Below are positions 13,336-50,544 of a DNA stretch of 64,000 nt, piece by piece (the stretch's first letter is position 1; every line of letters starts with the position of its first letter). Made by a program: the position numbers and the translations under genes. The notes beneath the pieces were generated by a model. It was not told where the DNA came from. It searched no databases and worked only from the letters and a program-made list of their open reading frames with translations. This DNA is from Hyphomonadaceae bacterium (lineage in GTDB: Bacteria > Pseudomonadota > Alphaproteobacteria > Caulobacterales > Aquidulcibacteraceae): assembly GCA_016791445.1 (NCBI GenBank), contig JAEUMP010000005.1, positions 5,001 through 69,000 of the forward strand. Direction: 5' to 3'.

Positions 13336-13454
13336 CAGGGCATGGTGTGCAGGCGCGCGTTTAGAGAACGCTTAACGCATGCGCCGGCGCCCGCGGAATC
13401 GTCCCTTTCGAAAACGACGCCACGGCGGGTTGGACAGCGATGGAGCGAAAACGC

Positions 13455-13760
13455 TCAACAGAGCGCGGGCGCGGACCTCGCGGGATCAAGCTCACGCGCG
13501 AAGGCGCGGGCGCGGCGCCTGAAAAGACACAGGGCCTGCCCGTCCGCACGGTGCGAAGTGAAACCGAAGGCCCGCTCACACAACGGACCCGGCGCGCGCA
13601 ACGCATGAGAAGAGGACCGCCGGACGGCGTCGCGCGAGGTATTCCGACGGCGGGCGCGCGGCGCACTCGTCTCTGCGGGCGGAACCGGACGCGTCGACGC
13701 CGCCCGCAACGCGAGCAACCCTCCGACCGCCAGAACCAACACCACTAGAAACGCGAGCAC
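13455..13760 (-). CDS. Small membrane protein with upstream LexA box, copy 1
   Basis: A putative 101-residue protein starting with GTG at 13760, 4 bases after GGAGGG. The first 20 residues are one hydrophobic segment (LVVLVLAVGGLLA) followed by arginines, so a single membrane anchor with an arginine-rich tail is predicted. A second copy at 37813 shares the promoter region, LexA box, ribosome site, 25 of the first 31 residues and the later motif RAPGPLCERA. The cysteine-containing tail may instead be a spread DNA repeat read through by the frame. Caulobacter SidA is a tiny LexA-controlled membrane inhibitor of division; that is an analogy only. Confidence 0.5.
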   Translation of the reverse strand: MLAFLVVLVLAVGGLLALRAASTRPVPPAETSAPRARRRNTSRDAVRRSSSHALRAPGPLCERAFGFTSHRADGQALCLFRRRARAFARELDPARSAPALC

Positions 13761-13791
13761 ATCGCCCTCCGTTGAAAAACCTGCGCGCGTT

Positions 13792-13806
13792 GTTCTCTTT
13801 TTGTTC
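13792..13806 (-). promoter_or_regulatory. LexA (SOS) box upstream of small membrane ORF, copy 1
   Basis: GTTC-TCTTTTT-GTTC on the + strand, that is GAAC-N7-GAAC on the - strand, an exact match to the alphaproteobacterial LexA direct repeat. It lies about 30 bases before the GTG at 13760, next to a TATAAG that could be the -10 element. Confidence 0.8.
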
Positions 13807-13840
13807 TTATAGCGCAAGTGACGATTTGGACAGGTTCGCC

Positions 13841-13906
13841 GGAGCGCGGACGGCCTCGTCCGCGTACCCCTGTCTATGCTGACGCGGACGAGGCCGTCCG
13901 CGCTCC
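13841..13906. repeat. Perfect 25-bp inverted repeat
   Basis: 13841-13865 and 13882-13906 are exact reverse complements around a 16-base loop. The arms carry the core GGACGGCCTCGTCC. It would form a very stable hairpin and looks like a dispersed intergenic palindrome rather than a gene part. Confidence 0.9.
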
Positions 13907-13910
13907 GCTC

Positions 13911-13993
13911 GTAGGGTGGATTGAGCGGAGCGAAATCCACCATCAAGACGGCGAACACCCCGGTGGATTTCGCTCACGCTCAATCCACCCTAC
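13911..13993. repeat. Inverted repeat with GTAGGGTGGATTGAGCG ends
   Basis: The arms 13911-13941 and 13962-13993 are reverse complements apart from one inserted base; both ends read GTAGGGTGGATTGAGCG outward-in. Sequences of this kind are common dispersed intergenic repeats in proteobacteria. The right arm overlaps the last codons of the hypothetical gene ending at 13980. Confidence 0.88.
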
Positions 13994-14447
13994 GCGTTTC
14001 AACACATGAATCTGTACGTGAGATCTGCACAATAACATCAGGTGCGATGTAGCTGAGGCGCACACATCTTCCGTCTGCCAATTCTACAATGTCGGGGCTG
14101 GGAATTACTTGATTTATGAGCAGAAACGATTGCGCTCCGACAACCAGTTCGTTGCTGCCTTCTGACTTTCTTTGAAAAATCGCGTTTCCGGCCACTGTCA
14201 CCGCCTCGCCGTTATCAAATTGACGGCTCAACGATGCCAACTCAATCTGCCGAAGCACGAAATCTCGCAGCCCAAGGCCCAGAATGAGCAAGGCAACAAT
14301 GAGCACCGATGATCTGAGTGACGGACTTCTGCTAACCTGCATATTCCTTAAAGAATGAACACCCCAGATCGCTCCTCCACCGCCAACGAGGAGAACGAGC
14401 ACAAGATTGAAAATACCCCTGTCGGCTTCAGTTAGATCGAGCGTCAT
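13980..14447 (-). CDS. Hypothetical membrane protein of atypical base composition
   Basis: A 155-residue protein with two membrane segments (about 10-28 and 43-62) followed by a soluble domain containing two cysteines. The ATG at 14447 follows GAGGGGG. The reading frame is clearly richer in A and T than its neighbours, especially 14000-14350. It is the last gene of the run below hmgA and ends inside an intergenic palindrome. No family is recognised; the composition suggests recent acquisition. Confidence 0.65.
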   Translation of the reverse strand: MTLDLTEADRGIFNLVLVLLVGGGGAIWGVHSLRNMQVSRSPSLRSSVLIVALLILGLGLRDFVLRQIELASLSRQFDNGEAVTVAGNAIFQRKSEGSNELVVGAQSFLLINQVIPSPDIVELADGRCVRLSYIAPDVIVQISRTDSCVETRRVD

Positions 14448-37337: not shown

Positions 37338-37358
37338 CCCCCTGCCAACGTCCACACC

Positions 37359-37461
37359 GCTCGTCCCCGGCACAGGCCGGGGATCATTGCCGTCTGAAGC
37401 CGAAACGCCGTCGCGAACGCTCCACCAGAAATGGTCCCCGGCCTGCGCCGGGGACGAGCAC
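37359..37461. repeat. 103-bp dispersed repeat, copy A
   Basis: It begins GCTCGTCCCCGG and ends CCGGGGACGAGC, so the unit is itself an inverted repeat at its ends, with inner palindromes (CCCCGGCACAGGCCGGGG). Copy B lies 180 bases further on. The 37338-37812 stretch holds no other feature except these repeats and the second LexA box. Confidence 0.9.
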
Positions 37462-37538
37462 CGACAAACGCACCTGAGTTCGTCACGCCATCGCGCTTTC
37501 GGGTGCGAAGCCAGTGCACCTCCACGAACGCCCACAGC

Positions 37539-37641
37539 GCTCGTCCCCGGCGAAAGCCGGGGACCATTGCCGCTTGAAGCCGAAACGCCTTCGCGAACGC
37601 TCCGCAAGAAATGGTCCCCGGCCTGCGCCGGGGACGAGCAC
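37539..37641. repeat. 103-bp dispersed repeat, copy B
   Basis: Same length and ends as copy A, differing at a few positions (for example GCGAAAGCCGG for GCACAGGCCGG). Direct orientation relative to copy A. Confidence 0.9.
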
Positions 37642-37766
37642 CTCCATGATCCGCGAACTGAACAGAGCGGTGGAGCGGCGGCGTCCTCGCCGCCGTCTGG
37701 TCTTCGGGAGGGTCGCGGCGACGGGGGCGTCGCCGCTCCATGTCCGAATTGTCACTTGCCAGACAA

Positions 37767-37781
37767 GAACAAATAAGGAAC
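37767..37781 (+). promoter_or_regulatory. LexA (SOS) box upstream of small membrane ORF, copy 2
   Basis: GAAC-AAATAAG-GAAC, an exact GAAC-N7-GAAC repeat, 31 bases before the GTG at 37813. The stretch before it (TCACTTGC) and after it (CGCAGGTTTTTCAACGGAGG) matches copy 1 at 13.8 kb. Confidence 0.82.
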
Positions 37782-37812
37782 ATCGCCCGCAGGTTTTTCA
37801 ACGGAGGGCGTG

Positions 37813-38136
37813 GTGCTCGCGTGTCTTGTGGTTCTGGTTCTGGCGGTCGGAGGGCTCCTCGCTATGCGGGGCGCCTCCGCGCGTCCGGTGACCGCCGCTG
37901 AGACGCCGGTGCACACCCGCCCCCGCATCACCTCGCGCGACGCCGCCCCGCGGTCCTTCATCCTCGCGTCGCGCGCGCCGGGCCCGTTGTGTGAGCGGGC
38001 CTCTGGATTTCTGTCGCACCCTGCAATCGGGCGGGCCACGCGCCCTGCCGCCATACCCCACCTGTGGGATGTGGATGCTGCGCGCCGTCGCGCGGGTGCG
38101 TTTGATCCCGAAAGGCCGCCGCCCGCGCGCTGTTGA
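37813..38136 (+). CDS. Small membrane protein with upstream LexA box, copy 2
   Basis: A putative 107-residue protein homologous to that at 13455-13760. The homologous GTG start is 37813 (another GTG at 37810), after GGAGGG. It has one membrane segment (LVVLVLAVGGLLA), then ITSRDA and RAPGPLCERA, shared with copy 1, after which the two diverge. Substitutions in the hydrophobic part are conservative (Phe/Cys, Leu/Met), which favours a real peptide. Whether translation continues through the whole frame is uncertain. Confidence 0.5.
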   Translation: MLACLVVLVLAVGGLLAMRGASARPVTAAETPVHTRPRITSRDAAPRSFILASRAPGPLCERASGFLSHPAIGRATRPAAIPHLWDVDAARRRAGAFDPERPPPARC

Positions 38137-38287
38137 CGCGCGCCTTCACGTCCATCGCTGACCTGACCCGCCGCGGCGTCGCTTCTTCACAGGCGATTCC
38201 GCGGGCGCCCCCGCACGGCCCGCGCCACGCGTTGCGCAGGGGCGAGGACACTGGAATAAGGGCGCACGCTTTTCCCCCAAGGCCGCG

Positions 38288-50426: not shown

Positions 50427-50544
50427 CGCCAATCCCCACCCCGCCGCCGCTCATTACCCGACTGAAACAGTCAGTTAATCCCCGTCGCCTTCTTCCCGCC
50501 CCGACCGGCCGGTATGTTCCTGCCACGTTCCGGTCCGGCGTGGT

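Follow-up and report, generated by a model that had tools for sequence, protein, structure and literature searches.

Small membrane effectors number one or a few in the well-studied SOS regulons. SidA of Caulobacter crescentus is a 29 aa, LexA-controlled inner-membrane protein that acts on FtsW and stops division, and the same organism carries DidA, a 71 aa damage-induced membrane protein with a single helix, whose induction by DriD is independent of SOS (PMC4211646). DinQ and TisB of Escherichia coli are SOS-induced single-helix inner-membrane peptides with structured transcripts; DinQ, a 27-aa peptide with a GTG start, depolarises the membrane, and both genes are under antisense control (dinQ-agrB, tisB-istR) (PMC3567139). 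YneA of Bacillus subtilis is described as an SOS-induced division inhibitor acting at FtsW (PMC13396833), and SosA of Staphylococcus aureus as an SOS-induced cell division inhibitor (PMC6851548).

The family described here has two copies in the window, by which we mean the whole 64,000-nucleotide stretch of DNA that was analysed. It shares with SidA the taxonomic order, the GTTC-N7-GTTC operator, and a small, predicted membrane protein with a single helix, but its proteins of 97-139 aa with a long arginine-rich tail, its nine copies, and its structured mRNA set it apart in build from the 29-aa SidA. Because of that length and tail, SidA, which the first-pass annotation had offered as a precedent, serves as one for logic and layout only, and its size is not matched. 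Like DidA, which is damage-induced, the family product is a single-helix membrane protein (here a predicted one), but DidA answers to DriD independently of SOS, whereas the family carries LexA boxes. With DinQ and TisB it has in common SOS-type control, judged from the box, a single helix and a structured transcript, and with DinQ also the GTG start, but the family proteins are about three times longer and come in nine copies. From YneA and SosA it differs in phylum, in being multicopy and in having no Pfam or NCBIfam match. By analogy, the family may be said to resemble SidA, TisB, and DinQ in logic; membership in those families is not claimed.

Since known SOS membrane proteins of comparable build stop division or depolarise the membrane, we favor by analogy a membrane brake, and our best reading, to which we give an even chance, is that of a LexA-repressed, multicopy, single-pass cationic membrane protein that would act as a damage-induced brake.

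A Multicopy Family Found in Two Species

The first-pass annotation had pointed to two conserved copies of a possible new SOS peptide family. Both copies are real (Table 1), and the box, leader, ribosome site, and N-terminus that it had seen recurring at 37.8 kb are those of copy 2; the two copies have a mean column identity of 81% over the aligned unit, and their leader, ribosome site, and N-terminus agree. The count, however, was too low, in that the source assembly (3.6 Mb, 28 contigs), when searched at the DNA level, has nine dispersed copies at 68-100% identity. As to novelty, no database family was found, but the product, at 97-139 residues, is too long to count as a tiny peptide.

Of 60 relatives searched with a protein profile, a sister species of the same genus, represented by the metagenome assembly Caulobacteraceae bacterium isolate X3_MaxBin.015, adds nine further copies, and the others have none apart from a weak match discussed below. 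The LexA box, ribosome site, GTG start, hydrophobic N-terminal helix, and arginine-rich tail are shared by all 18 units. Both carrier genomes are at draft stage, and at least one was assembled from a metagenome; because there are only two carrier species, the conservation tests are limited to 18 related sequences, which are not independent of one another. The family was not found in a third species of the genus by protein-profile or promoter-model searches, and it is therefore dispensable at genus level. Among 398 genomes scanned across the order, it was present in the two species only, with none in the third congener and the 395 others.

A model of the promoter and N-terminus recovers exactly these 18 copies, all with E values of 1e-23 or lower, and no other match below E 0.002 in the searched genomes. 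Weaker promoter-model matches elsewhere (E of at least 0.002) look like chance, being ∼20 orders of magnitude short of the family, and were rejected together with a weak protein-profile match in one genome (G040, E 7e-4) that was not seen again in the 398-genome scan. Viral contigs, phages, and plasmids hold no relative detectable by protein or DNA search, and Pfam, NCBIfam, PHROGs, PADLOC, and PDB give no family match for the proteins at a meaningful score (one member has a PADLOC match at E 0.039, which is chance level). The family is previously undescribed and without relatives in the known families searched.

Table 1. Coordinates of the Family Units and Their Parts, and Places of a Second Multicopy Element (window positions unless a contig or locus is named)
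Feature	Position	Strand	Remark
Copy 1 unit	13392-13824	minus	
Copy 1 -35-like element TCGTCA	13819-13824	minus	17 nt before presumed -10
Copy 1 LexA box GAACAAAAAGAGAAC	13792-13806	minus	exact GAAC-N7-GAAC (other strand GTTC-N7-GTTC)
Copy 1 presumed -10	about 13796-13801	minus	putative; within LexA box
Copy 1 ribosome binding site GGAGG	13766-13770	minus	
Copy 1 ORF	13455-13760	minus	GTG start at 13760; 101 aa
Copy 1 RNA helix A	13596-13635	minus	9 bp; inside ORF; coordinates from locus L001
Copy 1 RNA helix B	13568-13590	minus	9 bp; loop GUGUG; inside ORF
Copy 1 RNA helix C	13392-13424	minus	13 bp; after stop codon
Copy 2 unit	37767-38203	plus	
Copy 2 LexA box GAACAAATAAGGAAC	37767-37781	plus	exact GAAC-N7-GAAC
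Copy 2 ribosome binding site GGAGG	37803-37807	plus	
Copy 2 ORF	37813-38136	plus	family-aligned GTG at 37813; 107 aa
Copy 2 RNA helix A	37935-37974	plus	
Copy 2 RNA helix B	37980-38002	plus	
Copy 2 RNA helix C	38172-38203	plus	
Third copy on same contig	C9:69918-70297		just beyond window edge
Second element	L018, L029, L030, L010, L033, L036, L187, L191, L195, L198		

LexA Box and Promoter

An exact GAAC-N7-GAAC stands at the same position in 18 of 18 copies (nine of nine in the source genome and nine of nine in the sister species). The distance of about 30 bases between box and GTG given by the first-pass annotation is borne out in copy 1, where the box ends 31 nt before the start codon. A lone exact box is not significant: the window has three against 1.9 expected by chance, a number reached by 32 of 100 shuffles, and the whole source genome has 93 against 57 for a reversed control pattern. 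The significance of the boxes comes instead from their recurrence at the same place in every copy. The third exact box of the window (GAACGTGGCAGGAAC, 50516-50530, minus strand), which lies inside a long ORF span and has a G+C-rich center, is probably a chance occurrence.

The inner bases of the 18 family boxes are mostly AWAWRNN, and a TGTCA/TTCA element is kept across the aligned copies 17 nt upstream of this A+T-rich stretch, which suggested to us that the box probably overlaps the -10 element, with the upstream element as the putative -35. A strict consensus promoter scan listed no promoter at copy 1, the sense one included. The published Caulobacter LexA motif, GTTCN7GTTC, is the motif of the family box (PMC12700426). 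In the source genome, the same motif ends 63 nt before the start of lexA and 80 nt before that of recA, and it also occurs where an ORF with a peptidase-S24 (UmuD-like) domain begins. Another box-bearing gene we take by eye to be imuA; Pfam gave no confirmation. The pattern of a box, 14-24 nt, and GGAGG occurs nine times in each carrier species, the family accounting for eight and nine of these, and in 39 relatives it occurs 0-1 times each, except for four in one genome. The LexA control proposed at first pass is supported at the level of sequence by the box in all 18 copies and by the motif before lexA and recA, and with an operator in the presumed promoter in 18/18 copies, the units are predicted members of the LexA (SOS) regulon of the Caulobacterales.

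Nine extra exact operators in one genome could also be read as a LexA decoy, in which the boxes serve to titrate LexA while the sequence behind them is passive; we consider this very improbable, as the downstream ORF and the RNA structure are conserved too.

Very Probable Translation from the GTG

In all nine source-genome copies, the leader is GGTTTTT-like, the ribosome site reads GGAGG (GGAG in one), the start codon is GTG, and the N-terminus resembles MLAFLVVLVLAVGGLLLW; the copy 1 protein begins MLAFLVVLVLAVGGLLA. The start is GTG in 18 of 18 copies, and copy 2 has an additional in-frame GTG at 37810. In most copies an out-of-frame ATG overlaps the GTG (GATGTG), but its frame breaks in many copies and it was rejected as the start. 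Stop codons or frameshifts within the first 30 codons of homologous regions, one of the findings named at first pass as speaking against the idea, are absent from all 18 copies.

Coding was assessed from the distances between nucleotide anchors, taken modulo 3, in the 18 copies. From the start to the first anchor there are 116-161 nt in eight different lengths, and a later ORF interval spans 91-160 nt in seven lengths; the remainder is constant in 18/18 copies for both, and every anchor interval internal to the ORF has one remainder throughout. The leader (29-32 nt) and the spacer between stop and hairpin (ten lengths) fall into all three modulo-3 classes. Because length changes come in multiples of three inside the ORF and not in the leader or the 3' spacer, the ORF is very probably translated, to the common stop, and this evidence is strong even though the copies are related. 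Whole-ORF dN/dS, at 0.85, gives no separation of coding from other frames, and we therefore draw no proof of coding from it. The anchor-distance test took the place of a pairwise comparison of gap lengths under affine alignment, in which misaligned pairs of diverged copies dominated the outcome. Codon usage of the family ORFs is unlike that of the host genes.

A Predicted Single-Pass Basic Protein

The membrane-helix N-terminus claimed by the first-pass annotation agrees with both hydropathy and structure prediction. The sole hydropathy peak, at residues 1-20, gives one predicted membrane helix, and residues 2-22 are predicted as a helix with pLDDT above 90, the remainder having no stable fold (mean pLDDT 62.6). 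Net charge is +8 to +20 across the family, whose proteins are basic throughout, and the tail is basic, predicted to be disordered, and built around a core RAPG(P/L)LCERA (RAPGPLCERA in copy 1). The arginines just after the helix make an N-out/C-in orientation probable. Over codons 2-17, hydrophobicity lies above all 2000 null draws and amino-acid changes are fewer than expected (P about 0.003); the same null-draw test finds little amino-acid constraint in the tail, close to neutral. These comparisons indicate that N-terminal hydrophobicity is under selection and that the tail evolves almost neutrally.

Covarying Hairpins in the Transcript

The predicted transcript carries three conserved sense-strand hairpins with compensatory changes, which are new here. 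The cells that pair amount to 100% in helix A, 98% in B, and 97% in C, and sliding the partner by 1-3 columns reduces this to 32-64%; the shuffles used for covariation retain the relatedness among the 18 copies. In helix A, an A-U to G-C exchange is present in several copies, and in the most diverged copy (L009, GCGCAGUGC/GCGCUGCGC) two neighboring pairs are compensated. In many helix pairs the variation goes through G-U and not A-C, an indication that the sense strand is the RNA. The core codons for RAPG and LCER are frozen at their synonymous positions, for which the RNA helices can account. Helix C in single units folds no better than shuffled sequence, so that the case for RNA structure rests on covariation. 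A long-range stem joining the core and the 3' end was rejected, because the changes on its variable side have no compensating changes on the other, which is invariant. Rfam covariance models gave no match at the gathering score, only subthreshold ones, and matches to miRNA families belong to palindromes beside the unit, not to the unit itself.

Covarying hairpins in an mRNA mean that a role at the RNA level has to be considered. They probably tune translation or stability of the mRNA, which is our conjecture. Structured mRNAs are usual among small toxic membrane proteins. The unit could go further and be a dual-function damage-response gene, present in nine copies in one lineage, whose structured RNA is also the mRNA of a cationic membrane protein; we rate a dual-function transcript as the main rival of the membrane brake, and consider this form of it possible though on the unlikely side. 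Unlikely, in our estimate, is a dual-function or mainly RNA gene whose main effector would be the structured transcript induced in the SOS response, with the protein secondary or a device for holding ribosomes on the RNA. The three compensated hairpins, two of them in the ORF, the frozen synonymous sites of the core, and the nearly neutral amino-acid sequence of the tail would all fit such a gene, but the frame is kept over the whole ORF, variable parts included, N-terminal hydrophobicity is selected, Rfam has no match, and the mRNAs of small toxic membrane proteins are usually structured as well.

SOS control, a small single-helix membrane protein, a structured mRNA, and several copies are all seen in type I systems (PMC3567139), and the units could by analogy form a type I toxin-antitoxin-like set in which a toxic membrane protein is held back by an antisense RNA, as for TisB/IstR-1 and DinQ/AgrB. 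The strict consensus scan of the unit finds no promoter on either strand, a weak test given that it misses the sense promoter too, and the proteins have about three times the length of TisB and DinQ; we hold this explanation to be doubtful.

Genomic Setting and Age of the Copies

Copy 1 and the C19 copy are syntenic in the sister species, with ∼74-84% flank identity on both sides, and these old copies keep box and ORF. For copy 2 and the copy at C9:70 kb, the matching sister-species sites are short intergenic regions without a unit (for copy 2, ∼70 nt against ∼1.3 kb), and the sister-species copy L056 matches a region of the source genome that has none. Judged from these unit-free places, copies have been gained and lost across the species, yet they are old enough to have diverged by 20-30%. 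Most of a tree of the 18 units lacks resolution; it contains one clade of four copies that are all from the sister species.

No gene is common to the neighborhoods of all copies. The neighbors of copy 1 are a downstream gene with an RF-1 domain and an ORF that Pfam does not match; for copy 2 they are an upstream GIY-YIG ORF and a downstream TauE transporter. We rejected a constant operon with the gene that follows, since this gene is on the same strand in some copies (RF-1 domain, TauE) and on the opposite strand elsewhere. Just upstream of copy 1, at window positions 13835-13994, lie two inverted repeats that are long and almost perfect (GCGGACGGCCTCGTCCGCG type and GTAGGGTGGATTGAGCG type), and similar palindromes flank several other units. 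Upstream of copy 2, positions 37355-37645 hold repeated palindromic blocks (GCTCGTCCCCGGC ... GCCGGGGACGAGC).

Dispersed, intergenic copies, three of them facing an empty place in the other species (copy 2, C9:70 kb, and L056), in a family restricted to two species, would also be expected of a selfish or nonautonomous repeat element that spreads in the genome, exploits a LexA promoter to its own benefit, and has no host function. This we think improbable: box, frame, and helices are kept in every copy despite differences of 20-30%, two loci have retained their synteny between the species, the neighbors share no mobility gene, and the empty sites compared allowed no repeat ends or target duplications to be defined.

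Proposed Mechanism

The family, its boxes, the frame constraint, the helix, and the RNA covariation are evident from the sequence. For the membrane brake, we propose beyond this that every unit stands alone as a gene repressed by LexA. LexA bound to the GAAC-N7-GAAC box over the -10 would block RNA polymerase, and upon DNA damage RecA-driven LexA cleavage would derepress all nine copies together, binding and induction being what we infer from the boxes. Each mRNA would then be translated from its GTG into a 97-139-residue protein, whose N-terminal helix would insert into the inner membrane and whose basic disordered tail would stay cytoplasmic. There, by conjecture, the protein could hold the division machinery as SidA does, or lower membrane energy as TisB and DinQ do. 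The arrangement suggests that the cell may make many such proteins at once upon DNA damage. The near-neutral tail, the codon usage unlike the host's, helix selection that is not on the protein, and the absence from the third congener count against the brake.

If confirmed, the family would be a case in which the damage response is scaled through the number of genes and in which mRNA structure is conserved along with a membrane protein; it would also provide a new, directly testable membrane effector of a bacterial damage checkpoint. Young and lineage-limited, it could show how SOS effectors arise.

Other Elements in the Source Genome

A second, unrelated multicopy element is present at at least 10 places outside the window (Table 1) with 79-100% identity, several of them at contig ends. 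Its promoter, TTGACRT-GTTCTGTTTTTGTTC-CTATACC, has a LexA-like box in the spacer and is followed by about 330 nt ending in a GGGGACGCGGAC...GTCCGCGTCCCC hairpin; no ORF is clearly conserved in the element, and Rfam does not match it. Genomes G001 and G002 have partial relatives, in which the box is absent from the copies looked at.

At another place in the source genome (L037/L038, C8:7395-7443), a spacing of 34 nt separates two exact LexA-type boxes, which are flanked by a 139-aa ORF that has no Pfam match and, on the other side, by a divergent ORF that, by eye, we take to be a Fur-family regulator. This pair of boxes is a candidate doubly operated SOS promoter.
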